From: Thalassovita aquimarina
GTDB taxonomy: Bacteria > Pseudomonadota > Alphaproteobacteria > Rhodobacterales > Rhodobacteraceae
DNA length: 64,000 nucleotides
Direction: 5' to 3'
NCBI RefSeq assembly: GCF_018219815.1
Contig: NZ_JADMKU010000005.1
Coordinates: 1 to 64,000 of the forward strand
In this document: one piece after another, positions 35,693 through 55,090 of the stretch
Numbering within the stretch: the stretch's first letter is position 1
How the letters are laid out: every line of letters begins with the position of its first letter
Made by a program: the position numbers and the translations under genes
Notes under the pieces: generated by a model
The model's database searches: none
Told to the model about the DNA's origin: nothing
Seen by the model: the letters and a program-made list of their open reading frames with translations, nothing else

Positions 35693-36475
35693 TCAGACCG
35701 TGCGGTTCACCAGCATGCGCTTGATCTCGGCAATCGCCTTGGCCGGGTTCAGACCTTTCGGGCAGGTCTTGGCGCAGTTCATGATGGTGTGGCAGCGATA
35801 CAGCTTGAACGGATCTTCCAGATCGTCCAGCCGTTCGCCGGTGGCTTCATCGCGCGAGTCGATGATCCAGCGATAGGCGTGCAGAAGCGCTGCCGGCCCA
35901 AGATACTTGTCGCCGTTCCACCAGTAGCTCGGGCAGGAGGTCGAGCAGCTGGCGCACATCACGCATTCATAGAGGCCGTCGAGTTTCTTGCGGTCCTCGA
36001 TCGACTGCTTCCATTCCTTGGCGGGCCGGTTGGTCTTGGTTTCCAGCCACGGCATGATCGACGCGTGCTGCGCATAGAAGTGGGTCAGGTCGGGGATCAG
36101 GTCCTTGACCACCGGCATGTGCGGCAGCGGGTAGATCTTGACCGTGTCCGACTTGACCTCGTCCATGCCGTAGATACAGGCCAGCGTGTTGATGCCGTCG
36201 ATATTCATCGCGCAGGACCCGCAGATGCCTTCGCGGCAGGACCGCCGGAAGGTCAGGGTCGGATCGATCTCGTTCTTGATCTTGATCAGCGCGTCCAGGA
36301 TCATCGGGCCGCATTTGTCCATGTCGACGAAATAGGTGTCGACCCGGGGGTTTTCGCCGTCATCGGGATTCCAGCGATAGATCTGGAACTTGCGCACGTT
36401 CGTCGCGCCCTCGGGTTTGGGCCAGGTCTTCCCGGTACGGACGCGGGAATTCTTGGGGAGCGTCAGTTGGACCAT
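35693..36475 (-). CDS. sdhB: Succinate dehydrogenase iron-sulfur subunit
   Basis: A 260-residue SdhB, the electron-transfer subunit between the flavoprotein and quinone site of complex II. The [2Fe-2S] ligands are in CREGICGSC and the later LACIYGM; the [4Fe-4S] and [3Fe-4S] ligands are in [23 protein letters not shown] and CPKGLNP. The ATG at 36475 has a TAGGAGA site. It is the last gene of the operon, after an inserted FkbM methyltransferase gene. Confidence 0.98.
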
Positions 36476-36510: not shown

Positions 36511-37302
36511 TTAATCGCTCAGTCGGCCCGCATCGCGGACAAACAGTGTATTTCCTTCGCCTTCGAACCGGGGCGCATACCCGGCGGATGTGATCCGCCC
36601 GATCAGGTCGCCGCCCCACTCCGCGGCATGTTCGGTTTCGATCAGGATGGCATCGGGCATGTCAGCCTCGCCCGCCTGATCGAGCCACGGGCCGAGAACC
36701 GAATCCTCGAACCCTTCGACGTCGATCTTGATGACACAGACATCATAGTCGTCCGCGCCCTTCATATAGGGGGCCAGCGGCCGGACCGGCACGCACACGG
36801 TGCCGTCGGCCTTGCCCTTGCCGACACCGCGCAGCGATGCCTGACCGTAATTTCCGGCGCTCAGCATCAGCTTGGCCTCGCCTTCCTCGGCACCAAGAGC
36901 ACAGCCTTCGATCCGCACCACGTCGCCAAGGCCGTTGCGGCGCACGTTTTCGCCCAGCCGCCCCAGCATCACCGGGTTGGGTTCGAAAGCGATCACCCGC
37001 GATCCCGCACCGGCGGCGCGCGCCAGCGGCACCGCGAAGGCGCCGCAGTTGCCGCCGATATCCAGCACCAGCGCCCGCTTTCCCCTCACGATGTCGGTCA
37101 GAGCTTGCAGCGATTGCGCCTCGGGCGGTTCACCGTTCAGCCAGATGCACTGTTCGGTGAAATTGTCCCGCGGATTGACCAGCAGCTCCACCCCCGCGAA
37201 GCTGACCGCGGTTTGCGGCAGCAGCGGCCGCAGGTGGCGCCGGACCTTGGGTCCGGCGACCTGAAAGGCCTTGCGCAGGTGTTTTTGCTGCTGCCGGTCC
37301 AT
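36511..37302 (-). CDS. FkbM family methyltransferase inside the sdh operon
   Basis: A 263-residue SAM-dependent methyltransferase of the FkbM family: motif [21 protein letters not shown], then [14 protein letters not shown], and the later [13 protein letters not shown]. FkbM enzymes methylate hydroxyl groups of sugars or natural products and are often found in polysaccharide loci. It lies between sdhA and sdhB with short gaps (9 and 35 bases) and must be co-transcribed with complex II. Nothing known links FkbM to succinate dehydrogenase, so it looks like an insertion that has been retained. Confidence 0.88.
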
Positions 37303-37311
37303 CGCCGCCCC

Positions 37312-39117
37312 TTAGAAGGTCCGCGCTTTCGGCGCGATCTTCTCCAGCGAGATGCCGCCTTCGTCTTCGGTGCTCAGCGGATCGAGGATCACCGGACGAT
37401 AGCTGAGATCGACCTTGTTGCCCTCGACGCGGGACACGGTGTGGATCCGCCAGTTCTTGTCGTCGCGATCCGGGTAATCCTCGTGCGCGTGGGCGCCGCG
37501 GGATTCCTTGCGCGCCTCGGCTCCGACGATGGTGGCCAGCGCGTTCGGCATCAGGTTGGCCAGTTCCAGCGTTTCCATCAGGTCGCTGTTCCAGACCAGC
37601 GACCGGTCGGTCACTTTCAGATCGTCCATCTTGGCGGCAACCGCAGTCATCTTTTCGACCCCTTCCTTCAGGGTCTTGTCGGTGCGGAACACCGCCGCGT
37701 CCGACTGCATTGTGCGCTGCATTTCCAGCCGCAGTTCCGCGGTCGGGATGCCGCCATTGGCGTTGCGCAGACCGTCGAACCGCTCAAAGGCCTTGTCGAT
37801 CGACGCCTGGTTCAGAACCGGGTTCGGCGCGTTCGGGTCAACCACCTGACCGGCGCGGATCGAGGCCGCGCGGCCGAACACCACAAGGTCGATCAGCGAG
37901 TTCGAGCCCAGACGGTTGGCGCCGTGCACCGAGGCGCAGCCGGCTTCGCCCGCAGCCATCAGGCCGGGCACGACGGCGGTGGGATTGTCCGCGGTCGGGT
38001 TCAGAACCTCGCCCCAGTAATTGGTCGGGATACCGCCCATGTTGTAGTGCACGGTGGGCAGGACCGGGATCGGTTCCTTGGTAACGTCGACACCGGCGAA
38101 GATCTTGGCACTTTCCGAAATGCCCGGCAGACGTTCGGCCAGCGCTTCGGCGGGCAAGTGCGACAGGTTCAGGTGGATGTGATCGCCATGTTCGCCGACG
38201 CCGCGGCCTTCACGGATTTCCATCGTCATCGAGCGCGACACGTAATCGCGCGGCGCCAGGTCCTTGTACTGGGGCGCATAGCGCTCCATGAACCGTTCGC
38301 CTTCGGAGTTGGTCAGGTAACCGCCTTCGCCGCGGGCGCCCTCGGTGATCAGGCAGCCGGACCCGTAGATGCCGGTCGGGTGGAATTGAACGAATTCCAT
38401 GTCCTGCAGCGCCAGCCCGGCACGTGCCACCATGCCGCCGCCGTCACCGGTGCAGGTATGCGCCGAGGTAGCCGAGAAGAAGGCCCGGCCGTACCCGCCG
38501 GTCGCCAGCACCACCATCTTGGCGTTGAACACGTGGAAGGTGCCGTCGTCGAGTTTCCAGCACACCACGCCCTGGCACTGACCGTCATCGGACATGATCA
38601 GGTCGATGGCGAAATATTCGATGTAGAATTCGGCGTTGTTCTTCAGCGACTGGCCGTACAGCGTGTGCAGGATCGCGTGGCCGGTCCGGTCGGCGGCGGC
38701 GCAGGTGCGCTGCACCGGTGGGCCTTCACCGAATTCGGTAGTGTGGCCGCCGAAGGGACGCTGGTAGATCTTGCCCTCTTCGGTGCGCGAAAACGGCACG
38801 CCGTAATGTTCCAGTTCGTAAACCGCCTTGGGCGCTTCGCGCGCGAGGTATTCCATCGCGTCGGTATCGCCAAGCCAGTCCGACCCCTTGACGGTGTCGT
38901 ACATGTGCCATTGCCAGTTGTCCGGGCCCATGTTGCTGAGCGAGGCGGCGATGCCGCCTTGTGCCGCCACGGTGTGCGACCGGGTCGGGAAAACCTTGGT
39001 CACACAAGCTGTGCGCAGCCCCTGTTCGGCCATGCCCAGCGTGGCCCGCAGACCCGCGCCGCCGGCGCCGACGACAACCACGTCATATTCGTGCGTTTCG
39101 TATTTGTATGCAGCCAT
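37312..39117 (-). CDS. sdhA: Succinate dehydrogenase flavoprotein subunit
   Basis: A 601-residue SdhA, oxidising succinate to fumarate. FAD-binding [20 protein letters not shown] is at 15-34, the covalent FAD-linking His is in [15 protein letters not shown], and the substrate and catalytic region includes [21 protein letters not shown] and RDYVSRSM. The C-terminus ends IAPKARTF. It follows sdhD by 13 bases. Confidence 0.98.
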
Positions 39118-39130
39118 TTTCCTAATTCCT

Positions 39131-39502
39131 TCAGAGCGCGATCTTGGCCAGGGCGAACAGACCGAAGCCGGTCACCACGTAGGACAGGCCGATCACGAAC
39201 ATCACCAGCAACTTGCGCGTGGTACCTTGCGCATAGTCTTCGATCATCATCTGCGCGCCTTTCGCGAAGTGGCGCAGGCCGACCAGCAGGACCAGAGCGG
39301 TCAGAACCGCGGTGAACGGGCGCGAAAAGATCGCCTGCACTTCCTCGTGAGAAGACCCGAGCGCGCGGCCGAAGATGAAGATGAAAAGCGGGACGATACA
39401 GGCCAGACCGACGGCGCTGACGGTCATGTACCAGTGGTGTTCGGTCCCGGTATGGGAAGCGCCTTTGCCCTCGGCGCGTTTACGGGCGGTCAGGTAACGC
39501 AT
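39131..39502 (-). CDS. sdhD: Succinate dehydrogenase membrane anchor subunit SdhD
   Basis: A 123-residue membrane protein with three helices (about 27-46, 60-80 and 93-116). The conserved His and Asp of the heme/quinone region are in [25 protein letters not shown]. It starts 13 bases after sdhC. Confidence 0.95.
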
Positions 39503-39515
39503 GGCTCGGCTCCGG

Positions 39516-39899
39516 TTATACGATGATGAGGGTCAGGACGGTCAGCGCGACCGATCCGATCAGGCAGGCCCAGCCCAGCTTTTCAGCGGTGGGGATGTCC
39601 AGCCCGTGACCGGCGTCAAAATAAAGGTGACGCAGGCCCGCGAGGTAGTGATACCACAGCCCCAGCACCGACAGGGTCATGACCAGGTCGCCGAACCACG
39701 AGGTCATCACGGCATCAGCCAGGGCATAGTATTCAGCGCTCGTCGCCGCGGCCAGCAACCACCACACAACCAGAACCGCGCTGACGATCAGGGCGTTTCC
39801 GGTAATTCGCGTCAGAATGGACGTGATTGCAGTCAGCTGGGGGCGATAGATTTGGATGTGCGGGGAAAGCGGGCGCTCGGCCTTTTTCACATCAGCCAT
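39516..39899 (-). CDS. sdhC: Succinate dehydrogenase cytochrome b556 subunit SdhC
   Basis: A 127-residue membrane subunit beginning MADVKKAERPLSPHIQIYRPQ, the classical SdhC start (R-P-L-S-P-H-x-x-I/V-Y). The heme-binding segment is LGLWYHYLAGLRHLYFDAGHG. Three membrane helices. The ATG at 39899 has AAAGGATC upstream. It is the first gene of the operon, downstream of a double GTGATCAC operator. Confidence 0.96.
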   Translation of the reverse strand: MADVKKAERPLSPHIQIYRPQLTAITSILTRITGNALIVSAVLVVWWLLAAATSAEYYALADAVMTSWFGDLVMTLSVLGLWYHYLAGLRHLYFDAGHGLDIPTAEKLGWACLIGSVALTVLTLIIV

Positions 39900-40010
39900 A
39901 TCAGATCCTTTCAGGGTTCCCTTACTTAGCCTCTTTCTTACTGTTTTTTTTGCCCGTGTCACGCGCAACGGGGGTAGCGATTGCGCTAAACCCCGCAGAA
40001 AAGAGGGAAA

Positions 40011-40018: not shown

Positions 40019-40053
40019 TTTGTGATCACGGCGAAACCCGGCGTGATCACAAA
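40019..40053. promoter_or_regulatory. Double GTGATCAC operator of the sdh operon
   Basis: TTTGTGATCACG (40019-40030), an 11-base spacer, then CGTGATCACAAA (40042-40053). Each half contains a perfect GTGATCAC palindrome and the whole 35 bases form one inverted repeat. The palindrome centres are 21 bp apart, two helical turns. The same arrangement and spacing precede sucC. Confidence 0.75.
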
Positions 40054-40128
40054 TATATCTTATCGAAATAATCGGGTTTTTCCTCGATTCCGCGACGGGC
40101 GAAGCATCGCCGCACATTACGATTTCCT

Positions 40129-40165
40129 GCCGTGATGAGCCGCACATGGCGCGGCTTGGCACGGC
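40129..40165. other. Long imperfect hairpin upstream of sdhC
   Basis: GCCGTG (40129-40134) pairs with CACGGC (40160-40165), and AGCCGC (40138-40143) with GCGGCT (40151-40156), with a 3x3 internal loop and a seven-base loop. It could be a structured leader, a small RNA or a cruciform; no T run follows. Confidence 0.35.
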
Positions 40166-40225
40166 ACTTGACCGGAATTGCGGCGGCACGGGCTGCTCCG
40201 CTTCCGCCTTGGGCGCCCCGAGAGC

Positions 40226-40233
40226 GTGATCAC
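40226..40233. promoter_or_regulatory. Solitary third GTGATCAC palindrome
   Basis: GTGATCAC within a larger perfect palindrome AGCGTGATCACGCT (40223-40236), 183 bp from the sdh double operator. It may be an auxiliary site for looping. It lacks the TTT/AAA flanks of the other copies, so it could be chance. Confidence 0.35.
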
Positions 40234-40270
40234 GCTATCGGCGGCACCGTCACGCCCGCCTGAAATGGAA

Positions 40271-40299
40271 ATCGGCCCGCACCGGAAGGTGGGGCCGAT
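40271..40299 (-). terminator. Terminator hairpin after mch
   Basis: ATCGGCCCGCACC (40271-40283) pairs with GGTGGGGCCGAT (40288-40299) with one bulged base and a GGAA loop; the minus strand then reads TTTCCATTTC. It ends the mcl2-mch operon. Confidence 0.65.
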
Positions 40300-40335
40300 C
40301 ATAAGAGAAATCAGGCAGGCCAGCTTGAAGGCCGG

Positions 40336-41367
40336 TCACATCGGCATCAAAGCCCAGTAATCGATATCCAGCAGAACCTCGGGCAGGTATTTGCCGTCCT
40401 CGCCCTTCAGCCGGAACGGTTCCCCCCCGCTGGTGGCGACCAGGCGCAGGCGGATGGCGCCGACGCCGGGCGCGGATGTCTCTGCCTTGTCCAGAACTTC
40501 GGACCACGCCTTCACCGTCAGGCCGCTGAAACAGGGGTTGGCATGGGCACCGCCGTTTAGACCAACGATCATCTGCGCGTTGGCCAGCCCGTTGAACGAC
40601 AGCGCACGGGCCATCGAAATCACGTGACCACCATAGATCAACCGCTGCCCATCGGGACGGAAAGTGGCGTCGAAATGCACCTTGGCGGTGTTCTGCCACA
40701 GGCGGGTCGCCATCATGTGTTCGGCTTCCTCGATGGTGACGCCGTCGACATGGTCGATCTTTTCGCCCACTTCGTAATCGCCCCAGCGATGCGGTTCGCC
40801 GGCCAGGGTGAAATCGTAGTTTGAGAAATCCAGCCCTTCGGGGATCACCAGTTCCTCGACCGGGATCACCTTCTTCAGCTCGGGGATCACCGTTTCCGGC
40901 GCCGGCGCATCAAGGTCGCGTTTGCGCACCATCACCCAGCGGGCGTAATCCAGCACCACCTCGCCCAGTTGGTTCATGCCGCGGGTGCGGACATAGACGA
41001 CGCCCGACTTGCCGTTGGAATTCTGCTTCAGCCCGATCACCTCGGACACCGAACGCAGCGTGTCGCCGGGATAAACCGGCTGCAGCCACTTGCCCTCGGC
41101 ATATCCAAGATTGGCAACCGCGTTCAGCGACACGTCCGGCACCGTCTTGCCGAACACCACGTGGAAGGCGGCCAGATCGTCCAGTGGGCTTTCGGCCAGA
41201 CCGCAATCGCGGGCGAATTCATCCGAGGAATACAGCGCGTGACGGGCCGGATAGAGCGCATGATAGAGCGCCCGTTCTCCTTCGCCCACGGTACGCGGCA
41301 CCGCGTGGGCGATCACATCGCCCAGCTTGTAGTCTTCGAAAAAGCGGCCCGGATTGGTCTTCGCCAT
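40336..41367 (-). CDS. mch: Mesaconyl-CoA hydratase (beta-methylmalyl-CoA dehydratase)
   Basis: A 343-residue protein with two MaoC-like hot-dog domains, the size and pattern of the ethylmalonyl-CoA pathway enzyme that hydrates mesaconyl-CoA to beta-methylmalyl-CoA. Seen: MAKTNPGRFFEDYKLGDVIAHAVPRTV, the domain 1 region VYPGDTLRSVSEVIGLKQNSNGKSG, VVYVRTRGMNQLG, and domain 2 with YGGHVISMARALSFNGLANA. The ATG at 41367 overlaps the DUF1737 stop by one base; an upstream GTG adds only one residue. Placement with an Mcl2-like gene agrees. Confidence 0.92.
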   Translation of the reverse strand: MAKTNPGRFFEDYKLGDVIAHAVPRTVGEGERALYHALYPARHALYSSDEFARDCGLAESPLDDLAAFHVVFGKTVPDVSLNAVANLGYAEGKWLQPVYPGDTLRSVSEVIGLKQNSNGKSGVVYVRTRGMNQLGEVVLDYARWVMVRKRDLDAPAPETVIPELKKVIPVEELVIPEGLDFSNYDFTLAGEPHRWGDYEVGEKIDHVDGVTIEEAEHMMATRLWQNTAKVHFDATFRPDGQRLIYGGHVISMARALSFNGLANAQMIVGLNGGAHANPCFSGLTVKAWSEVLDKAETSAPGVGAIRLRLVATSGGEPFRLKGEDGKYLPEVLLDIDYWALMPM

Positions 41368-41570
41368 CACAGTTCTCCAAGTTTCAGTTCGGGATGGTAT
41401 TCGCCGGGCGCATCCTTGGTCACCGCCTGACCGCAGCGCATGACGCCATTGGCGGCATCGAAGGCATAGGTCGGGTCACCGTGCAATTCCCAGCCCTTGT
41501 TCAGGGCCTCGGTCACCTTGTGGCAGAAGGCCGAGGTGTCGTCAGCGGTCAGAAAACGATAAATCTTCAT
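41367..41570 (-). CDS. DUF1737 family protein
   Basis: A 67-residue protein matching DUF1737: MKIYRFLTADDTSAFCHKVTEALNKGWELHGDPTYAFD, followed by a short variable tail. The family is small, soluble and uncharacterised. An ATG three codons earlier (41579) overlaps the NnrU stop in ATGA fashion and is a possible start. It is translationally coupled to both neighbours. Confidence 0.85.
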   Translation of the reverse strand: MKIYRFLTADDTSAFCHKVTEALNKGWELHGDPTYAFDAANGVMRCGQAVTKDAPGEYHPELKLGEL

Positions 41571-41575
41571 GGGTC

Positions 41576-42121
41576 TCATCCAAACGGGTTATAGCCAAGC
41601 CAGGTGTGGATCATGGCGATCGCGCCGAACACCACCACGGTTCCGACCGCAGCGCCGATTTCCTTGCCGGTGGAAAATTCGGTCGGTTTCTTCCACTCCG
41701 GCTCCATGCTGTTGATCTGAATGACCGAAAGGACCGCCCAGATCAGCATGCCGCCGAACAGGATGAAGGACGGCACGTCGCCGTTCACCAGCAGGTGCCC
41801 CAGGGCCCAAGCCTTGACCCCGGCCAGCTGCGGATGGCGGATCCTGGCGGTGAGGCGGGTTTTCATCCCCGAGGCGGCGAAAAGGTAGATCGACAGCAGC
41901 ATCAGCAGGTTGTTGATCCCGGCCAGTATAGGGGTGCGGCCCCAGTACACCGCGCCGTCTGCGGTGCGGTATCCGACCACCATCAGCACCAGCGACAGCA
42001 GCAACAGCAAGGCGATCGGCCCCTTGGCCTTTTCGCCCCAGGAGGCGCGCAGTTCGGGCGCCAGTCGTTTGAACAAATGCGCGCCCGACCACAGCAGCAC
42101 GCCCAGAATAAGCCAGATCAT
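41576..42121 (-). CDS. NnrU family membrane protein
   Basis: A 181-residue membrane protein with about six hydrophobic segments. Family features: WSGAHLFKRLAPELRASWGEKAKGP, RHPQLAGVKAWALGHLLVNGDVPSFILFG, and the C-terminal ATGAxxHxWLG-like AIAMIHTWLGYNPFG. NnrU was first linked to denitrification genes and its relatives to carotenoid or heme-type chemistry, but many copies, like this one, lie outside such loci. It is between mcl2 and mch, as in Rhodobacter relatives to my knowledge. Confidence 0.9.
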   Translation of the reverse strand: MIWLILGVLLWSGAHLFKRLAPELRASWGEKAKGPIALLLLLSLVLMVVGYRTADGAVYWGRTPILAGINNLLMLLSIYLFAASGMKTRLTARIRHPQLAGVKAWALGHLLVNGDVPSFILFGGMLIWAVLSVIQINSMEPEWKKPTEFSTGKEIGAAVGTVVVFGAIAMIHTWLGYNPFG

Positions 42122-42163
42122 GGAGACCTCCGTTCCATTTGGTTCTCTGGGCGCTAATGTGCC

Positions 42164-43021
42164 TTATTTGGCCAGTTCGGCAATAGCTGCGGCCTTGGCG
42201 AGGGTCTTTTTCGCGGTTTCGACATGCAGGTTTTCGACGATCTTGCCGTCGACCACCGCAACGCCCTGCCCTGCCGCTTCGACCTCTTCCAGCGCTGCGA
42301 TCTGGCGCTTGGCAAGGTCAATCTCGGCCTCGGACGGCGCGAAGGCGGCGTTGGTCACCTCGACCTGCGCCGGGTGGATCAGCGTCTTGCCGTCGAAACC
42401 CAGGTCACGGCCCTGATCGCATTCTACCTTCAGCCCCTCGTCATCCTTGAACTGGTTGTAGACACCGTCGATCGCCACCACGCCATGCGCCCGCGCCGCC
42501 ATCAGGATCGTCTGCAGCGCCATCTGCATCGGCAAACGGTCGGCGCGGAACCGGCAGTTCAGTTCCTTGGCCAGATCGTTGGTGCCCGCGACGAAACCCG
42601 CCAGTTGCGGATGGGCGGCGATTTCCAGCGCGTTCATGATCCCCAACGGGGTTTCCATCATCGCCCAGATCGGTTTGCCGTTGCCCAGCAGATCGGCCAG
42701 CGCCTGCACATCGGCGGCACTGTCCACCTTGGGTAGCAGGAAAGCGTCGGCATCGGCGTCGCGCAGCGCTTCGACATCGCCCTTGCCCCATTCGGTATCA
42801 AGCCCGTTGATCCGGATGATCTTGGCCCGGCTGCCGTAACCGCCCTGATCCAGCGCCGCCTTCAGCGTGGCGCGCGCTTCGACCTTGGCGTCGGGGGTCA
42901 CCGCGTCTTCGAGATCGAAGATGATCGCATCCACCGGCAAGCCCCGCGCCTTGTCCAGCGCCCGGTCCTTGGACCCGGGAATATAAAGAACCGAACGATA
43001 CGGGCGGGCGGTCATGTCCAT
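42164..43021 (-). CDS. mcl2: (3S)-malyl-CoA thioesterase-like CitE family protein (Mcl2 type)
   Basis: A 285-residue protein of the HpcH/HpaI-CitE family: RSVLYIPGSKDRALDKARGLPVDAIIFDLEDAVTPDAK with the metal-binding Glu and Asp, KIIRINGLDTEWGKGDV, MMETPLGIMNALEIA, and DVGFDGKTLIHPAQV-like LGFDGKTLIHPAQVEV. Sequence and neighbourhood (NnrU, DUF1737, mch, sdh) match the Rhodobacter (3S)-malyl-CoA thioesterase, which releases malate from malyl-CoA, rather than the lyase Mcl1. I start at 43021, six bases after GAGGAG; two other Met codons are close. A lyase activity cannot be excluded. Confidence 0.8.
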   Translation of the reverse strand: MDMTARPYRSVLYIPGSKDRALDKARGLPVDAIIFDLEDAVTPDAKVEARATLKAALDQGGYGSRAKIIRINGLDTEWGKGDVEALRDADADAFLLPKVDSAADVQALADLLGNGKPIWAMMETPLGIMNALEIAAHPQLAGFVAGTNDLAKELNCRFRADRLPMQMALQTILMAARAHGVVAIDGVYNQFKDDEGLKVECDQGRDLGFDGKTLIHPAQVEVTNAAFAPSEAEIDLAKRQIAALEEVEAAGQGVAVVDGKIVENLHVETAKKTLAKAAAIAELAK

Positions 43022-43207
43022 TTTCATCTCCTCGCAACAATCTTGCGCGGAATTGGGCATTTTTTACCAAAAACTTCAAGCAGATTTTTGCCGCATCGCA
43101 GAAATACGTAACGGCGCTGCGGCGCGGGACGTCACGTTAACCACGTCTTCAGCGCCGGACCGGCAGGCTTTGCGCACCGGATCAGGCCAAATTGAAAGGG
43201 GATGACG

Positions 43208-43516
43208 ATGACAACCAAGGTCTTCACGCTCGCCTTCGCCGCGCTGGTGCTGGCGGGCGCGGCGCAAGCGCAAACCGCCAACCGCTGCGCGCCCCGCGAT
43301 CAGGTGATCGCGCAATTGGCGGACCGCTACGGCGAAACCCGGCAATCCATCGGACTGGGATCGAACAACCGGGTGATCGAGATTTTCGCCTCGACCGACA
43401 CCGGCACCTGGACCATCCTCGCCACCCTGCCGACCGGCTTGAGCTGCCTGCTGGCCAGCGGTCAGGCCTATCAGAAACGGGCCGAGGCGCGGTCCGCCCA
43501 GGGCACTCGAATCTGA
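43208..43516 (+). CDS. Small secreted protein, conserved hypothetical
   Basis: A 102-residue protein with a signal peptide (cleavage near AQA-QT). The mature domain has two Cys (ANRCAPRD and GLSCLLAS) that may form a disulfide and a compact beta pattern (NNRVIEIFASTDTGTWTILATLP). It resembles a small periplasmic protein family common in Rhodobacteraceae with no known function. The second ATG (43208) is preferred, as AAGGGG then lies 6 bases upstream. Confidence 0.7.
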   Translation: MTTKVFTLAFAALVLAGAAQAQTANRCAPRDQVIAQLADRYGETRQSIGLGSNNRVIEIFASTDTGTWTILATLPTGLSCLLASGQAYQKRAEARSAQGTRI

Positions 43517-43560
43517 GGGCGCAACGCGCGCACCGACTTGGCCTCAGAAGATCGGCCCGT

Positions 43561-44313
43561 TCACGTCACCCCATCCCAGATCAGTTTCGCCCCGGTCAGG
43601 ATCAGCAACACGTAGGTCAGGCTGAAAAACGCACGCTCCGGGATGCGATAATGCAGCCGCACCCCGATCCACGCGCCAAGCAGCGCGAAGGGCGCCAGCA
43701 CAAGATCGGCCATGAAGGTCTGCACCGAAAAGATTCCCAGCAGGAAATAGGGCACGAACTTGGCCAGGTTGACCGCCCAGAAGGTCAGAACGGTGGTCGC
43801 CTGATAGGGCGTTTTGCCCAGGCCCCGCGACAGCAGGTAAACCGCCGCCGGTGGCCCGCCCGCATGGCTGATGAAGCTGGTGAAACCCGCCACCGCCCCG
43901 GCGATCGTCCCGCCCCAGACCGGCATCGCCCGCTTGGGCGCGCCGATCAGTTTCAGCCTCAGCGCCAGTTGCCACGCCACGAAAGCCACCGCGATGCCGC
44001 CGATCAGGATACGGAACACGTCAGCGTCCACAGATTGATACAGCCATCCGCCCGCAACGATCCCCGGCACCGATCCGACGATCAGCACGCGGGCCTCGGG
44101 CCAGCTCCACTTTTTCCAGTAGGGACGCAGGGTCGACACGTCGATCAGCATCAACAGCGGCAGCATGATGCCGATGGCCTGTCCCGGTTCCATCACGACG
44201 GCCAGAATCGCCGCCGAGGCGAACGCCGCCCCCGACCCGAAACCGCCCTTGGAAATACCGGCGAACACCACGGCAGCGGCAGCAATCGCCAAAGTGGCCA
44301 AGTCCAACTGCAT
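43561..44313 (-). CDS. TauE/SafE family membrane protein
   Basis: A 250-residue membrane protein with about eight helices and the family glycine motifs (AGISKGGFGSGAAFASAAILAVVM at the N-terminus; AGAVAGFTSFISHAGGPPAAVYLL in the second half). Like other members it may export sulfite or organic sulfonates, but the substrate is unknown. Start at 44313 is at the first membrane helix. Divergent from mdh. Confidence 0.85.
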   Translation of the reverse strand: MQLDLATLAIAAAAVVFAGISKGGFGSGAAFASAAILAVVMEPGQAIGIMLPLLMLIDVSTLRPYWKKWSWPEARVLIVGSVPGIVAGGWLYQSVDADVFRILIGGIAVAFVAWQLALRLKLIGAPKRAMPVWGGTIAGAVAGFTSFISHAGGPPAAVYLLSRGLGKTPYQATTVLTFWAVNLAKFVPYFLLGIFSVQTFMADLVLAPFALLGAWIGVRLHYRIPERAFFSLTYVLLILTGAKLIWDGVT

Positions 44314-44405
44314 TTCCCAAATCCCCGCTGTTCGCGCTATCGCTCCTGATTTATCTGCAAAAATCGTCATATGACAGTCACAAAAATCCCGTCGCCGCAT
44401 CGTAG

Positions 44406-45437
<1,032 letters not shown>

Positions 45438-45464
45438 GCGTCAGATCATCAGCAAGACATTTCG

Positions 45465-45491
45465 AAAGGGTCCGGTTCGCCGGTCCCTTTT
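45465..45491 (+). terminator. Terminator of mdh
   Basis: AAAGGG-T-CCGG, a TTCG loop and CCGG-T-CCCTTT, with one T/T mismatch, then a T. The TTCG tetraloop makes it very stable. Confidence 0.8.
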
Positions 45492-45510
45492 GTCGTTTGC
45501 GGCCTTCAGT

Positions 45511-46098
45511 TCAGGGTTTCACCAACGCCAGATGGGTCACCCTCTGCATTTCGGCCAGATAGTCCGCTTCCGGCCAGCCGTTTTCCAACACGCAATGGGC
45601 CCATCCGTCCATGTTCAGCAGCGTGAAATAGAGATCCGTCGCCCGCGCCTCGGATAGATGATCCAGCAAGACGCCATCGGATTTGAGCGCACGGACCGCC
45701 GCCGCGCAGCCTTCCTTCATCGCGCGAATGCGATCCTCCCAGGCCGACTTGGCCTCTTCATCGCTGCCCCCCATTCGCATCAACGACTGTTTCAGCGGGT
45801 AGATCGCAGGGAAGAATTCCAGCATGGCCCGGGTGTAGGCCGTGAGGCGGCTGCGTCCGTCCGGTGCGGCACGGCTGGGGGCCAGCCGGTCGTCGATATC
45901 CAACTGGTCGCCGAAATGCAGAATCGCAGCGATCAGCATTTCGGACCGATTGGAGAAATGGGCATAGACCGTTTGCCGGGTGACCCCTGCCGCCTTGGCC
46001 ACATCGATCATCCGCAAGGGCGACCCCTCGGGGGCCAGTAACAAAGAAAGGACCGTATCCAGAAGGAGATGGCGGGTTTTTTCTCGTTTATTTGACAT
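45511..46098 (-). CDS. TetR family transcriptional regulator
   Basis: A 195-residue TetR regulator. The helix-turn-helix is LRMIDVAKAAGVTRQTVYAHFSNRSEML; the C-terminal ligand domain is helical and unassigned. It is divergent from a small DUF4345 membrane protein gene. The intergenic region, including its own start codon, is packed with three copies of a TTGACA-N3-TGTAAGATTT motif, strongly suggesting autoregulation and control of the neighbour. Confidence 0.92.
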   Translation of the reverse strand: MSNKREKTRHLLLDTVLSLLLAPEGSPLRMIDVAKAAGVTRQTVYAHFSNRSEMLIAAILHFGDQLDIDDRLAPSRAAPDGRSRLTAYTRAMLEFFPAIYPLKQSLMRMGGSDEEAKSAWEDRIRAMKEGCAAAVRALKSDGVLLDHLSEARATDLYFTLLNMDGWAHCVLENGWPEADYLAEMQRVTHLALVKP

Positions 46099-46168
46099 GA
46101 TGTAAGATTTTAACTTGACACAGTGTAAGATTTTAAGTCGTCTAAACAGAAATCTTACACCGTGTCAA
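46092..46168. promoter_or_regulatory. Triple operator between TetR gene and DUF4345 gene
   Basis: Two direct copies, TTGACATGATGTAAGATTTT (46092-46111) and TTGACACAGTGTAAGATTTT (46115-46134), 23 bp apart, differ at three bases. A third, inverted copy occupies 46150-46168. Copies 2 and 3 contain the palindromic TTGACAC-N-GTGTAA typical of TetR operators. The first copy covers the TetR start codon. Confidence 0.75.
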
Positions 46169-46182
46169 AGAAAGTTCTTGCC

Positions 46183-46608
46183 ATGACAAAATTCATAAAG
46201 CCCTTCCTCTTTCTGTCCGCGGCCGTCCTGATGCTGGTTGGCCTAATGCTCAGCTTCGCGCCGGATATGATGTATTCCAGTTCGGGGCATTCCCTGCCCG
46301 ATATGACCCTTCTGCGTTCCGATCTGCGCTCGGGCGGGATGGTCCTGCTGGTGTCCGGCCTATTTGTGCTCTGGTCCGCGCTGCGCGGCCGCCACATCGA
46401 ACTTGCGCTTTTGCTGTCCGCCCTGGCCTATTTGGGTTACGGGCTGGGCCGCTTTGTCAGCATCGGTTTTGACGGGGCGCCGGACGCGACGCTCGCCACA
46501 GTCACCGCCATTGAATGGGCGTTGGGGCTGGCCGCGCTCGCCCTCTTGTGGCGGGGAAAAAGCACGGGGGCCGGCACGCCTATGGCGACAAACCAAGCCC
46601 GCATTTAA
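46183..46608 (+). CDS. DUF4345 family membrane protein
   Basis: A 141-residue protein with four predicted membrane helices. The family pattern is visible: FLSAAVLMLVGLMLSFAPDMMY, SDLRSGGMVLLVSGLFVLWSALRG, YLGYGLGRFVSIGFDGAPD, and EWALGLAALALLW. Role unknown; DUF4345 genes are often paired with a TetR regulator. ATG at 46183 is preferred; a GTG at 46162 would add seven residues but overlap the operator. Confidence 0.8.
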   Translation: MTKFIKPFLFLSAAVLMLVGLMLSFAPDMMYSSSGHSLPDMTLLRSDLRSGGMVLLVSGLFVLWSALRGRHIELALLLSALAYLGYGLGRFVSIGFDGAPDATLATVTAIEWALGLAALALLWRGKSTGAGTPMATNQARI

Positions 46609-46620
46609 AAGCAACACAGG

Positions 46621-46654
46621 CGGGCCTCATCCGGATGATGAGGCCCGACTTTTT
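46621..46654 (+). terminator. Terminator after the DUF4345 gene
   Basis: CGGGCCTCATC (46621-46631) and its perfect complement (46637-46647) with a five-base loop, then ACTTTTT. Confidence 0.88.
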
Positions 46655-46841
46655 CACGCGAACCGTCAGCGCAATCCGCTACCCCTCTTTGTAAAACGCG
46701 ACCCGCAGGCGCGGGCAACCATCATCGATAAACGTGAATGGGCCGCGTTTCTTGCTTCAGCGGCAAAAAACTTAACCTGATAATCTTCGTTTTTTGAATA
46801 AATTTGGCGCTCCGCGAATCACTGCAAACACTATCTGCGCG

Positions 46842-46876
46842 TTTGTGATCACGCTTTTTGCGCGTGTGATCACAAA
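46842..46876. promoter_or_regulatory. Double GTGATCAC operator of the suc operon
   Basis: TTTGTGATCAC (46842-46852), 13 bases, then GTGATCACAAA (46866-46876). The two palindromes are 21 bp apart, exactly as at the sdh operon, and share the outer TTT and AAA. It lies 105 bases upstream of sucC. A possible promoter TTGCGC (46859-46864) to AGAAAT would place the downstream palindrome in the spacer. Confidence 0.75.
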
Positions 46877-46980: not shown

Positions 46981-48174
46981 ATGAACATTCATGAGTATCA
47001 GGCGAAAGCACTGCTTCGCGAATACGGCGCCCCGGTATCGGAAGGACGTGTCGTCCTGAAGGCCGAAGACGCAAAAACCGCCGCCGGTGAACTCGACGGC
47101 CCGCTTTGGGTGGTCAAGGCACAGATCCACGCAGGCGGCCGCGGCAAGGGGTCCTTCAAGGAAGCCGACGCCGGCGAAAAGGGCGGCGTGCGCCTGGCCA
47201 AGTCGGTGGAAGAAGCCGCCGAGGAAGCCAAGAAGATGCTGGGCCGCACCCTCGTCACGCATCAGACCGGCCCGGCGGGCAAGCAGGTCAACCGGATCTA
47301 CATCGAAGACGGGTCCGGCATCGAACGCGAACTGTACCTGGCGCTGCTGGTCGATCGCGTTACCAGCCGGATTTCCTTCGTCTGCTCGACCGAGGGCGGC
47401 ATGGACATCGAGGAAGTCGCGGCTTCGACCCCCGAAAAGATCCTCAGCTTCTCGGTCGACCCGGCCACCGGCTACATGCCGTTCCACGGCCGCCGCATCG
47501 CCTTCTCGCTGGGTCTGGCCGGCGCGCAGGTCAAGCAATGCGTCAAGCTGATGGGTCAGCTCTACCAGGCCTTCGTCGAGAAGGACATGGAAATGCTGGA
47601 AATCAACCCGCTGATCGTGACCGACGAAGGCAACCTCAAGGTGCTGGACGCCAAGCTGGGTTTTGACGGCAACGCGGTTTACCGCCACGCCGACATCGCC
47701 GCACTGCGCGACGAAACCGAGGAAGATCCGAAGGAACTGCAGGCGTCGAAATACGACCTGAACTACATCGCTCTGGACGGTGAGATCGGCTGCATGGTGA
47801 ACGGTGCGGGCCTGGCGATGGCCACCATGGACATCATCAAGCTCTACGGCGCGGAACCGGCCAACTTCCTCGACGTGGGCGGCGGCGCCACCAAGGAAAA
47901 GGTCACCGAGGCGTTCAAGATCATCACCTCGGACCCGAACGTCAAAGGCATCCTGGTCAACATCTTCGGCGGCATCATGCGCTGCGACGTCATCGCCGAA
48001 GGCGTGGTCGCCGCGGTGAAGGAAGTCGGCCTGCAGGTCCCGCTGGTCGTCCGTCTGGAAGGCACCAACGTGGAAGCCGGCAAGGAAATCATCAACACCT
48101 CTGGTCTGAACGTGATCGCCGCTGACAACCTCAGCGACGGCGCCGAGAAGATCGTGAAAGCGGTGAAGGGGTGA
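46981..48174 (+). CDS. sucC: Succinate-CoA ligase beta subunit
   Basis: A 397-residue SucC, the ATP-grasp subunit that binds nucleotide and succinate. [19 protein letters not shown] is the classical start; [18 protein letters not shown] and the C-terminal [11 protein letters not shown] and [15 protein letters not shown] are conserved. First gene of the suc operon. An unknown secreted-protein gene is inserted between it and sucD. Confidence 0.98.
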
Positions 48175-48683: not shown

Positions 48684-49571
48684 ATGGCAGTCCTCGTAGA
48701 CGAAAACACCAAGGTGATCTGTCAGGGCCTGACCGGCTCGCAAGGCACCTTCCACACCGAACAGGCGATCGCTTACGGCACCAAGATGGTCGGCGGCGTG
48801 ACCCCCGGCAAGGGCGGCCAGGAACACCTGGGCCTGCCGGTCTTCAACTCGGTGCACGAAGCCAAGGCCAAGACCGAAGCCAACGCATCCGTCATCTATG
48901 TTCCCCCGCCCTTCGCGGCCGACTCGATCCTCGAAGCGATCGACGCGGAAATGGAACTGATCGTCTGCATCACCGAAGGCATCCCGGTGCTGGACATGAT
49001 GAAGGTGAAGCGCGCGCTGGAAGACAGCAAATCGCGCCTGATCGGGCCGAACTGCCCCGGCGTCATCACCCCCGGCGCTTGCAAGATCGGCATCATGCCC
49101 GGCCACATCCACAAGCGCGGGTCGGTCGGCGTCGTGTCGCGTTCCGGCACCCTGACCTATGAGGCGGTCAAGCAGACCTCCGACATCGGCCTGGGCCAGT
49201 CCTCGGCGGTGGGTATCGGCGGCGATCCGATCAAGGGCACCGAACATATCGACGTGCTGGACATGTTCCTGGACGACGACGAAACCCAGTCGATCATCAT
49301 GATCGGTGAAATCGGCGGTTCGGCAGAAGAAGAAGCGGCCGAGTTCCTGAAGGAACAGAAGAAGAAGGGCCGCTGGAAGCCTTGCGCGGGCTTCATCGCC
49401 GGGCGCACCGCACCTCCGGGCCGCCGCATGGGCCACGCAGGCGCCATCGTCGCCGGCGGCAAGGGCGGTGCGGAAGACAAGATCGAGGCGATGAAATCCG
49501 CCGGTATCGTTGTCGCCGACAGCCCCGCCACCCTAGGCGAAGCCGTGCAGAAGGCGATTGAGATCGGCTGA
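48684..49571 (+). CDS. sucD: Succinate-CoA ligase alpha subunit
   Basis: A 295-residue SucD. CoA-binding region [27 protein letters not shown] is at the N-terminus; [11 protein letters not shown] and [13 protein letters not shown] follow; the phosphorylated His is in [15 protein letters not shown]. It works as a heteromer with SucC, even though their genes are separated by 0.5 kb here. GGGAGAACG precedes the ATG. Confidence 0.98.
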
Positions 49572-49717
49572 GGCCGGTGAGACGGCCCGGTCCTTCGGGT
49601 CCGGGCCATCCGAGGGGCGCGGGGCGGCCCCGGATCCTTTGGACAGCCGCCCAGAAACATAAGGACGACCGCAATGCGCGAGACAGCCATCACAGCCAGA
49701 CACGCGGAGGCCACCTC

Positions 49718-50422
49718 ATGACGCTGGTCTCGCACGCGCATGGGTTCGTCTATCTCAAGACGGGCAAGACCGCCGGGACCTCGGCCGAGGTGGCGCTGGA
49801 ACCACTCTGCATGCCTGCGGGCCATGTGCCCAGCCATACCACCGACATGCTGACGTCAGAGCAGGGGATTGTGGGCGCCCGCGGCGCCCTTGCCACCGGC
49901 ACACGGCCGACCTGGTACAACCACATGACCGCCGCCGAAGTGCGCGACCTCTTAGGCGCGGCCTGGGACCGCTATGCGCGGGTGGCTTGCATCCGTAATC
50001 CCTTCGATAAGATGCTGTCGGCCTTCTTCTTCTTCCAGCGCGACGCCCGTCAGGCCCCGAAGGCCGAGCAGATCGCGCGGTTCCGCGACTTTGCCGGGCG
50101 GACCTGCGCCAACCCCGACCAGGCCGCGCAACGCGACTACCGCATCTGCCATATCGGCGACGACCTGGTGCTGACGGACGTACTGCGCTTCGAGCACCTG
50201 GCCGAGGACCTGGCCCGCTTCGCGGCCTGCATCAAGGCTCCAGCCCCGCAGGACATTCCCCGGCTTAAAACCCAGCACCGCGACGATGACAGCCGTTCCC
50301 TGGCCGAGTGGTACGACGATGCCACCGCCGCCGCGGTGCGCCGTGCTTTCGCCTGGATGTTCACCCTTGGCGGTTACGCGCTGGACCCGGAAGACACGAC
50401 CCGCACAGGAGGGGCGATATGA
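49718..50422 (+). CDS. Sulfotransferase family protein within the suc operon
   Basis: A 234-residue cytosolic sulfotransferase-like protein. The PAPS 5'-phosphosulfate loop is YLKTGKTAGTSAEVAL near residues 11-26 and the 3'-phosphate site is VACIRNPFDKMLSAFFFF. Such enzymes sulfate surface glycans or lipids. It lies between sucD and sucA on the same strand with a GCGGAGG site, and overlaps a following small frame by 4 bases. The acceptor is unknown; a role in central metabolism is not expected. Confidence 0.82.
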   Translation: MTLVSHAHGFVYLKTGKTAGTSAEVALEPLCMPAGHVPSHTTDMLTSEQGIVGARGALATGTRPTWYNHMTAAEVRDLLGAAWDRYARVACIRNPFDKMLSAFFFFQRDARQAPKAEQIARFRDFAGRTCANPDQAAQRDYRICHIGDDLVLTDVLRFEHLAEDLARFAACIKAPAPQDIPRLKTQHRDDDSRSLAEWYDDATAAAVRRAFAWMFTLGGYALDPEDTTRTGGAI

Positions 50423-50608: not shown

Positions 50609-53578
50609 ATGACCGAACAATCACCCAACGATATCTTCCACGCCTCCAGCTTCATGCAGGGGCAGAACGCGGAATACCTCGAACAGCTTTACGCCCGCTA
50701 CGCCAGCGATCCCAACGCGGTGGACGAGGCGTGGCAGGAATTCTTCCGCCAGCTGGGCGACGCGGAAATGGACGTGAAGGCCGAAGCGCAGGGCCCGTCC
50801 TGGGCGCGCGCCGACTGGCCGCCGACCCCCAATGACGATCTGACCGCCGCGCTGGACGGGCAATGGCCCGCCGCCCCGGTCAAGGAAGCCAAGGACGCAG
50901 GCCAGAAGATCGCCGCCAAGGCCGCCGAAAAGGGACTCGAGATTTCCGACGAGCAGGTCAAGCGCGCGGTGCTGGATTCGATCCGGGCACTGATGCTGAT
51001 CCGCGCCTACCGGATCCGCGGCCACCTGGTGGCCGACCTGGACCCGCTGGGCATGCAGGACCAGACCCCGCATCCCGAACTCGACCCAGCCTCCTACGGT
51101 TTCACCGATGCCGACATGGACCGGCCGATCTTCATCGATAACGTGCTGGGCCTGCAGATCGCATCGCTGCGCCAGATCATGGATATCGTGAAACGCACCT
51201 ATTGCGGCACTTTCGCGCTGCAATACATGCACATCTCGGATCCCGAACAGGCCGGTTGGCTGAAGGAACGGATCGAAGGCTTCGACAAGGAAATCACCTT
51301 CACCCGCGAAGGCCGCAAGGCGATCCTGAACAAGCTGGTCGAGGCGGAAGGTTTCGAGAAGTTCCTGCATGTGAAATACATGGGCACCAAGCGGTTCGGC
51401 CTCGACGGCGGCGAAGCGCTGATCCCGGCGATGGAACAGATCATCAAGCGCGGCGGCAACCTCGGCGCCAAGGAAATCGTCATCGGCATGCCGCACCGCG
51501 GCCGCCTGTCGGTTCTGGCGAACGTGCTGGAAAAACCCTATCGCGCCATTTTCAACGAATTCCAGGGCGGCAGCTTCAAGCCCGAGGACGTGGACGGATC
51601 GGGCGACGTGAAATACCACCTCGGCGCCTCGTCGGACCGTGAATTCGACAACAACAAGGTGCACCTGTCGCTGACCGCCAACCCCTCGCACCTCGAAGCG
51701 GTGAACCCGGTGGTTCTGGGCAAGGCCCGCGCCAAGACCGATCAGAACAACGACCCCGAACGCCACACGGTGATCCCTGTGCTGCTGCACGGCGATGCGG
51801 CCTTTGCCGGCCAGGGCGTCGTGGCGGAATGTTTCGGCCTGTCGGGCCTGCGCGGCCACAAGACCGGCGGCACCATCCATATCGTGGTGAACAACCAGAT
51901 CGGGTTCACCACCGCGCCGCATTTCTCGCGCTCCTCGCCCTACCCGACCGATATCGCGCTGATGGTGGAAGCGCCGATCTTCCACGTCAACGGCGACGAC
52001 CCCGAAGCGGTGGTGCACGCCGCCAAGGTGGCGACCGAATTCCGCCAAAAATTCCACAAGGACGTGGTCATCGACATCTTCTGTTATCGCCGCTTCGGCC
52101 ATAACGAGGGCGATGAACCGATGTTCACCAACCCGCTGATGTACAACCAGATCAAGCGGCACAAGACCACGCTGCAGCTTTATACCGAGCGTCTGGTCAA
52201 GGACGGGCTGATCCCGGAAGGTGAAATCGAGGACATGAAGGCCGCGTTCCAGTCGCACCTGAACGAAGAGTTCGAGGCCGGCAAGGAATACAAGCCGAAC
52301 AAGGCCGACTGGCTCGATGGCCGCTGGTCGCACCTGGACAAGCAGGAACGCGACAAATACCAGCGCGGCCAGACCGCGATTTCCGAGGAAACCATGAAAC
52401 AGGTCGGCGAGGCGCTGACCCGCGCTCCCGATGGTTTCCCGCTGCATAAAACCGTCGGCCGTCTTCTCGACACCAAGAAGAAGATGTTCGAAACCGGCAC
52501 CGGTTTTGACTGGGCGACCGGCGAGGCGCTGGCCTTCGGGTCGCTGCTCACCGAAGGCTATCCGGTCCGCCTGGCGGGCCAGGATTCGACCCGCGGCACC
52601 TTCTCACAGCGCCATTCGGGCCTGGTGAACCAGGAAACCGAGGAACGTTACTACCCGCTCAACCACATCCGCGAAGGGCAGGCCCGCTACGAGGTCATCG
52701 ACTCGATGCTGTCGGAATACGCGGTGCTGGGCTTCGAATACGGCTATTCGCTGGCCGAACCCAACGCGCTGACCATGTGGGAAGCGCAGTTCGGCGATTT
52801 CGCCAACGGCGCGCAGATCATGTTCGACCAGTTCATCAGCTCCGGCGAAGCCAAGTGGCTGCGCATGTCCGGCCTGGTCTGCCTGCTGCCGCACGGTTTC
52901 GAAGGCCAGGGGCCGGAACACAGCTCGGCCCGCCTGGAACGGTTCCTGACCATGTGCGGCGGTGACAACTGGATCGTGGCCAACTGCAGCACGCCGGCGA
53001 ACTACTTCCACATCCTGCGCCGCCAGTTGCACCGGACCTATCGCAAACCGCTGATCCTGATGACGCCGAAATCGTTGCTGCGTCACAAGATGTGCATTTC
53101 CGACGCCGAGGATTTCCTGACCGGATCGTCGTTCCACCGGGTGCTGTGGGATGACGCCGAAAAGGGCCATTCGGATCTGAAACTGGTGGCAGACGACAAG
53201 ATCAAACGCGTCGTGCTGTGTTCGGGCAAGGTCTATTACGACCTGTTGGAAGAACGCGACGCGCGCGGTCTGGATGACGTTTACCTGATGCGGGTCGAAC
53301 AGTTCTATCCGTTCCCGGCCATGACCATGGTGAAGGAACTGGACCGTTTCAAGAACGCCGAAATGGTCTGGTGTCAGGAAGAACCGAAAAACCAGGGGGC
53401 CTGGTCCTTCATCGAACCCAATATCGAATGGGTTCTGACCCGGATCGGCGCCAAGCATACCCGCCCGACCTATGCCGGCCGGCCCGCCTCGGCCTCGCCC
53501 GCAACCGGTCTGGCAAGCCAGCACAAAGCCCAACAACAACAGCTCGTCAACGACGCGCTGACCATCGAAGGAAAATAA
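50609..53578 (+). CDS. sucA: 2-oxoglutarate dehydrogenase E1 component
   Basis: A 989-residue thiamine-diphosphate E1 enzyme. Seen: an N-terminal lipoyl-E2 binding part (FHASSFMQGQNAEYLEQLYARYASDP), GMPHRGRLSVLANVL, HLGASSDRE, the ThDP pocket FGHNEGDEP, and GQDSTRGTFSQRHSGLVNQ and GFEGQGPEHSSARLERFL in the transketolase region. It starts at 50609, preceded by AGGTGAACCC. It feeds SucB, encoded 3 bases downstream. Confidence 0.98.
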   Translation: MTEQSPNDIFHASSFMQGQNAEYLEQLYARYASDPNAVDEAWQEFFRQLGDAEMDVKAEAQGPSWARADWPPTPNDDLTAALDGQWPAAPVKEAKDAGQKIAAKAAEKGLEISDEQVKRAVLDSIRALMLIRAYRIRGHLVADLDPLGMQDQTPHPELDPASYGFTDADMDRPIFIDNVLGLQIASLRQIMDIVKRTYCGTFALQYMHISDPEQAGWLKERIEGFDKEITFTREGRKAILNKLVEAEGFEKFLHVKYMGTKRFGLDGGEALIPAMEQIIKRGGNLGAKEIVIGMPHRGRLSVLANVLEKPYRAIFNEFQGGSFKPEDVDGSGDVKYHLGASSDREFDNNKVHLSLTANPSHLEAVNPVVLGKARAKTDQNNDPERHTVIPVLLHGDAAFAGQGVVAECFGLSGLRGHKTGGTIHIVVNNQIGFTTAPHFSRSSPYPTDIALMVEAPIFHVNGDDPEAVVHAAKVATEFRQKFHKDVVIDIFCYRRFGHNEGDEPMFTNPLMYNQIKRHKTTLQLYTERLVKDGLIPEGEIEDMKAAFQSHLNEEFEAGKEYKPNKADWLDGRWSHLDKQERDKYQRGQTAISEETMKQVGEALTRAPDGFPLHKTVGRLLDTKKKMFETGTGFDWATGEALAFGSLLTEGYPVRLAGQDSTRGTFSQRHSGLVNQETEERYYPLNHIREGQARYEVIDSMLSEYAVLGFEYGYSLAEPNALTMWEAQFGDFANGAQIMFDQFISSGEAKWLRMSGLVCLLPHGFEGQGPEHSSARLERFLTMCGGDNWIVANCSTPANYFHILRRQLHRTYRKPLILMTPKSLLRHKMCISDAEDFLTGSSFHRVLWDDAEKGHSDLKLVADDKIKRVVLCSGKVYYDLLEERDARGLDDVYLMRVEQFYPFPAMTMVKELDRFKNAEMVWCQEEPKNQGAWSFIEPNIEWVLTRIGAKHTRPTYAGRPASASPATGLASQHKAQQQQLVNDALTIEGK

Positions 53579-53581
53579 CCG

Positions 53582-55090
<1,509 letters not shown>

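Follow-up and report, generated by a model that had tools for sequence, protein, structure and literature searches.

AkgR, the described system closest to the element analysed here, is said in the abstract of a 2015 mBio paper to activate genes of the tricarboxylic acid (TCA) cycle, and we take it to be the protein numbered RSP_0981. Excerpts of PMC4344238 present RSP_0981 as a GntR regulator of Rhodobacter sphaeroides, with sucCD, sdh and the 2-oxoglutarate dehydrogenase genes as its predicted targets. Here we analyse a 64,000-nt stretch of DNA from Thalassovita aquimarina (contig NZ_JADMKU010000005.1, positions 1 to 64,000; hereafter the window), in which two similar pairs of short palindromes stand before sdhC, the first gene of the succinate dehydrogenase operon, and before sucC, the first gene of the operon for succinyl-CoA ligase and 2-oxoglutarate dehydrogenase. 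These pairs are genuine predicted operators, conserved across the family, and are very probably sites of AkgR. We put at about 0.83 the probability that they are AkgR operators at which two dimers activate sdh and suc, with a single further site at which AkgR represses its own gene. The preliminary description of the window had proposed a paired operator with two-turn spacing common to sdh and suc and one shared regulator, which the sequence comparisons below support; it had also left that regulator unnamed, which does not hold, because RSP_0981 is in print as the predicted regulator, on the excerpts of PMC4344238, and has a probable orthologue in this genome. A regulator for these operons was thus already predicted; what appears new, as far as we have seen, is that the sites are paired at a set distance, that one also stands before akgR, and how widely they are spread in the family.

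Several features are shared with AkgR/RSP_0981. The candidate regulator is a GntR protein, and has an FCD ligand domain besides; its presumed targets, marked here by the pairs before sdhC and sucC, are the genes for succinate dehydrogenase, succinyl-CoA synthetase and 2-oxoglutarate dehydrogenase. The gene number of RSP_0981 is close to that of sdh, and akgR lies close to sdh in five genera, though on another contig in the genome of the window. A second related system is VanR of Caulobacter, also of the GntR/FCD type, whose operator, ATTGGATCCAAT, is present in two copies in the vanillate promoter. Like the sites described here, it is an even-centred 12-bp palindrome with a GATC core, but it serves vanillate catabolism and differs in its outer bases and spacing. 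A construct carrying ATTGGATCCAAT and a second element, ATTGGATCC, appears in a passage of PMC6538847 that does not itself call it an operator.

Paired palindromes before sdhC and sucC

The sdh pair (40019..40053) consists of palindromes at 40022-40029 and 40043-40050, and the suc pair (46842..46876) of palindromes at 46845-46852 and 46866-46873; both have outer TTT and AAA, neither is assigned to a strand, and each is conserved before the same gene in relatives. Written as GTGATCAC-N13-GTGATCAC, the pairs span 40022-40050 and 46845-46873, with equivalent bases 21 bp apart in both. On re-reading, the positions, the spacing and the flanking bases given in the preliminary description proved exact. 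Random occurrence elsewhere, a doubt which that description had itself raised, was not seen: the exact pair is found twice in the 64-kb window and in 0 of 100 dinucleotide shuffles, and the 4.33-Mb genome holds no further perfect pair. Imperfect pairs are more numerous, with no place listed at one mismatch, ten at two mismatches and 108 at three or fewer, and the looser form TGATCAC-N13-GTGATCA adds a third place in the genome, at C4:89639; as GTGATC is frequent where Val-Ile is encoded, loose matches of this kind mean little. The reversed pattern, used as a control, occurs once in the genome, less often than the real one, and is given little weight because it contains CTAG, a tetranucleotide that is rare in many bacteria.

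Single copies of GTGATCAC number six in the window, against 1.15 expected. With four of the six lying within the pairs, the solitary copies at 13077 and 40226 are near chance. The copy at 40226 had been suggested as an auxiliary site, a role that its near-chance number and poor conservation do not favour: of 47 distinct sdhC loci, no more than 2 have GTGATCAC in the region 150-320 bp upstream of the pair, and there is no consistent counterpart.

The pair extends well beyond this genome. In a family sample of 295 genomes, representing 294 genera, TGATCAC-N13-GTGATCA is present in 252 and the reversed control in none, so that the lack of conservation at the sdh and suc promoters of relatives, the other doubt that had been raised, is not what we find. 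Since the control contains the rare CTAG, the position of the pair before the same two genes is better evidence than the comparison with the control. In a class-wide sample with one mismatch allowed, the pair is found in 4 of 5 family members versus 1 of 380 other genomes, and the reversed control matches one other genome. A scan of named genomes with a 20-base form yielded at least 119 stretches, nearly all from Rhodobacterales by their record titles. One record that carries the pair, JAHVJD010000010.1 (L138), is titled Nocardioides marinus; at 158711 bases, like the family contig G238:C10, it is probably mislabelled.

The 157 pairs in loci L016-L164, not all independent as some genomes are in both collections, divide into 106 before sucC, 43 before sdhC and 8 before neither. 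Among these eight outliers, one (L037, from G042) lies before a class II fumarase gene (fumC), three (L063, L106 and L124) lie near cut ends beside mdh or a mesaconyl-CoA hydratase gene, two (L041 and L152) are next to mdh, where no sucC was found, and the last two are L030 and L044. The further TCA targets that had been suggested are therefore borne out only for fumC, and in a single relative (G042); gltA, icd and mdh are not, there being no third perfect pair in the genome of the window.

The aligned loci give the consensus TTTGTGATCACA, an A/T-rich spacer and TGTGATCACAAA, in which the search pattern itself dictates the core and the length of the spacer; the outer T and A bases were free in L016-L045, and in L046-L164 the outer TT and AA were part of the pattern. 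Conservation extends to the edges beyond the search pattern but not to the spacer, save for its A/T richness and its first and last base, and the sdh and suc pairs are therefore not recent copies of each other, as the preliminary description had argued from the window. The spacer measures 12 bp in 13 further genomes. Around the pairs, the only offsets at which an extra TGATCA was seen at least twice are -21 and +42, corresponding to a third palindrome in the same register; such arrays account for two of 119 distinct sucC entries and 0 of 47 sdhC entries, and palindrome triples also occur in G285, G135 and G191. A Cypionkella metagenome-assembled genome (G681:C7, L349 and L350, contig positions 42820-42895) has four copies of GTGATCAC before sucC, at spacings of 21, 21 and 26 bp.

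Sites of the CRP/FNR type read TGTGA-N6-TCACA or TTGAT-N4-ATCAA. The half-sites TGTGA and TCACA of the CRP consensus recur in TGTGATCACA, but here they abut without the 6-bp gap and the palindromes are paired at 20-21 bp; a CRP/FNR site was accordingly rejected, and the remark in the preliminary description that the motif has neither the FNR nor the CRP spacing stands. A RedB site was rejected as well, being given in excerpts of PMC9603854 as a non-palindromic AT-rich 12-bp motif, in contrast to the perfect palindromes found here.

A candidate regulator and its own promoter

Among 27 matches to the GntR model in this genome is a 216-aa protein (L190; G000:C3:7331-7978) in which PF00392 (GntR) and PF07729 (FCD) both score above cut-off. 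Its gene has TTGTGATCACAA 7 bp before the ATG, one of only two perfect occurrences of this 12-mer in the genome. This protein is the probable counterpart of RSP_0981, and we refer to its gene as akgR. The second occurrence of TTGTGATCACAA, at C66:66269, lies across the start of a radical-SAM gene and was taken as chance, because about 0.26 such words are expected, by estimate, in a genome of this size. A further GntR protein of this genome, L189, which is the most similar to the G440 protein described below, lacks GTGATCAC and was dropped. Among solved structures the best match to the candidate is McbR of Escherichia coli (GntR, PDB 4p9f; E 2.2e-19), at low identity; McbR belongs to another pathway and has other targets than AkgR.

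The palindrome before akgR recurs in relatives, with GTGATCAC present in 29 of the 30 best-scoring orthologues and, when the other fetched orthologues are included, in 38 of 55 distinct upstream regions. In 30 of these 38 cases its start lies 18 bp behind a TTGA; should this be the -35 element, the palindrome would lie over the promoter spacer and the -10 region, a position that suits autorepression. Across 43 orthologues, near-invariant columns make up 67 of 120 in the FCD domain and 29 of 60 in the DNA-binding region, which hints at one shared effector. Outside the family, the sole genome with a match to the pair among the 380 is G440, from another alphaproteobacterial family, in which three palindromes 20 and 21 bp apart (L165:973-1020) stand before another GntR/FCD gene; its protein is perhaps a relative of AkgR that uses the same DNA code for other targets. 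By reading, the G440 palindromes lie between the GntR/FCD gene and a gene resembling a TonB receptor.

The place of akgR also varies around its presumed targets. In 40 genomes chosen by score and size, akgR and sdhA are at most 5 kb apart in 5, 16-25 kb apart in 14, farther apart on the same contig in 6 and on different contigs in 15. In five genera (L359-L363) akgR lies just beyond the sdh genes, 1.7-4.3 kb beyond sdhA, which is the place implied by the numbering from RSP_0974-6 (sdh) to RSP_0981. In other loci (L319-L322, L346, L348 and L349) it lies beyond the suc genes, past lpd, so that the gene changes sides between these groups of loci and stays near its presumed targets. Used as a literature search word, RSP0981 matched PMC4344238 alone; among the matches listed, AkgR appears by name only in reference lists, in the portions of the sources available, and those for GTGATCAC, TGTGATCACA and ATTGGATCCAAT looked unrelated by title, one bacterial paper having the word inside a primer.

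The sites, their spacing and conservation, their co-occurrence with akgR (below) and the site before the regulator's gene are observed; from them we infer binding by this protein, co-operativity and the sign of regulation. One AkgR homodimer would bind each palindrome TGTGATCACA. The paired sites of sdhC and sucC would hold two such dimers, placed on one side of the helix at a distance of 21 bp (20 bp in some genera), which would bind co-operatively to activate the succinate dehydrogenase operon and the succinyl-CoA ligase/2-oxoglutarate dehydrogenase operon together. At the akgR promoter, in this genome and in many but not all relatives, the single palindrome would allow AkgR to repress its own gene. 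Activation by two co-operating dimers is suggested by the position of the pairs, the centres of which precede the sucC start by 110-164 bp and the sdhC start by 122-219 bp (108 pairs), with possible -35 elements, read from column profiles, further downstream. The same positions bear on an alternative in which AkgR, bound at the pairs, represses sdh and suc until a TCA-cycle intermediate releases it. Repressors are numerous among FCD-type GntR proteins, and the promoters relative to which the pairs are placed are themselves predicted; the distance of the pairs upstream of the possible -35 elements, in contrast to the akgR site with its usual place behind TTGA, makes repression at sdh and suc unlikely, as does the activation reported for AkgR in the 2015 mBio abstract.

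Co-occurrence, shared ancestry and other regulators

If AkgR reads the pairs, the two would be expected to occur together. Matches to the L190 protein reach E<=1e-25 in 277 of the 295 family genomes and E<=1e-70 in 265, and we defined an orthologue by the latter cut-off, set after seeing a gap between 3e-60 and 1e-74. Genomes that lack the pair number 22 among the 30 without an orthologue and 21 among the 265 with one (Fisher p 4e-15), and a cut-off of 1e-50 gives 20 of 27 versus 23 of 268 (p 9e-14). Among the 21 pair-less genomes with an orthologue, 15 have a readable region upstream of sucC, and all 15 carry a variant pair: in 13 it is exact but has a 12-bp spacer, and in 2 it keeps the 13-bp spacer and has one mismatch. 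Among the 30 genomes without an orthologue, 27 are readable, with an exact pair in 7, a four-mismatch remnant at the usual place in 1 (G157) and no pair in 19; one of these 19, G017, has a three-mismatch pair with a 12-bp spacer, at about chance level over the positions and spacings tried.

Several results weigh against AkgR as the reader of the pairs. The exact pair persists in those 7 of 27 readable genomes without an orthologue, of which four (G096, G264, G033 and G273) have assemblies that are 73-77% complete and three (G019, G256 and G114) have assemblies that are 91-100% complete but lie in 210-320 contigs. A tree of SucC with 56 rows, 27 without and 29 with an orthologue, has at least 12 label changes in its best form; its well-supported branches force only 2, and an independent-pairs test, which on this tree cannot reach significance, is not significant. 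The association between pair and akgR is therefore partly one of shared ancestry: numerically it is strong, but it weakens when common descent is taken into account. Furthermore, the palindrome is absent from 17 of the 55 distinct akgR upstream regions, including those of many Rhodobacter-type genomes such as R. ruber (L327), and present in others such as R. aestuarii (L332), and in the genome of the window akgR and sdh are on different contigs.

These results favour, in part, an explanation in which another regulator binds the pair, AkgR acts on sdh and suc through some other sequence, and their co-occurrence reflects common descent: the association is weak after correction for ancestry, seven genomes without a detected orthologue keep the exact pair, and many Rhodobacter-type akgR genes lack the palindrome. 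It would leave aside the palindrome before akgR in most close orthologues and before the GntR/FCD gene of G440, as well as the location of akgR near sdh or suc in many genomes. Moreover, clustering of neighbouring genes revealed no other conserved regulator among the 60 largest clusters, as judged by eye over short stretches. We consider this explanation quite unlikely.

The LacI-family carbon regulator CceR (RSP_1663) is, in excerpts of PMC4344238, a predicted regulator of sdh and mdh in R. sphaeroides, which would make the pair a CceR site. The same excerpts give its predicted motif as the inverted repeat GTT-N6-8-AAC, which does not fit GTGATCAC and is matched by neither pair. In the excerpts of PMC11323563, succinate dehydrogenase and 2-oxoglutarate dehydrogenase lie outside the CceR regulon of Paracoccus denitrificans and so are under other control, yet the pair stands before sucC or sdhC in four other Paracoccus records (L100, L119, L122 and L139; none of P. 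denitrificans itself), and a CceR site is very improbable. Hardly credible is the TetR-type gene between mdh and sucC (45511-46098) as the source of the regulator: no regulator gene lies nearer to the suc pair, but a homologue is present in 2 of 63 loci that contain mdh together with sucC, in contrast to the family-wide pair.

With AkgR as the reader of the pairs, a wider proposal can be made, tentatively and at somewhat less than even odds: AkgR may be a dedicated, family-wide switch for the stretch of the TCA cycle from 2-oxoglutarate to fumarate, reading DNA by the number and spacing of its sites, such that two co-operating dimers at exactly two turns mean activation (at sdh, suc and, in at least one lineage, fumC) and one over the core promoter means autorepression. 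If so, this stretch would form a self-limiting module, separate from the remainder of the cycle, and the pair and AkgR together would offer an answer for TCA-cycle control in Paracoccus, where they could be the missing regulation. The predicted sites amount to an operator code for TCA-cycle control that is precise and can be tested throughout a large bacterial family, and would connect the regulator predicted for R. sphaeroides with the majority of that species' relatives.

Presumed target genes in the window

Behind the sdh pair, on the minus strand, the first gene is sdhC (39516..39899; Pfam Sdh_cyt), encoding a membrane subunit of succinate dehydrogenase. It is followed by sdhD (39131..39502), assigned by position and a reading of the protein, by the flavoprotein gene sdhA (37312..39117; TIGR01816 above cut-off) and by the iron-sulfur subunit gene sdhB (35693..36475; PRK05950 above cut-off). 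A gene for an FkbM-type methyltransferase (36511-37302, minus strand) lies between sdhA and sdhB.

Behind the suc pair, on the plus strand, the first gene is sucC (46981..48174; PRK00696), for the beta subunit of succinyl-CoA ligase, followed by sucD for the alpha subunit (48684..49571; PRK05678), sucA for 2-oxoglutarate dehydrogenase E1 (50609..53578; PRK09404) and sucB for dihydrolipoyllysine succinyltransferase (53582..55090; PRK05704), all above cut-off. An open frame without an NCBIfam match (49577-50422, plus strand) lies between sucD and sucA. Finally, in sdhC loci CGTGAC(A/T) recurs about 63 bp after the promoter-proximal palindrome; its counterpart in the window, at 39957-39962 on the minus strand, is perhaps the -35 element of sdh.

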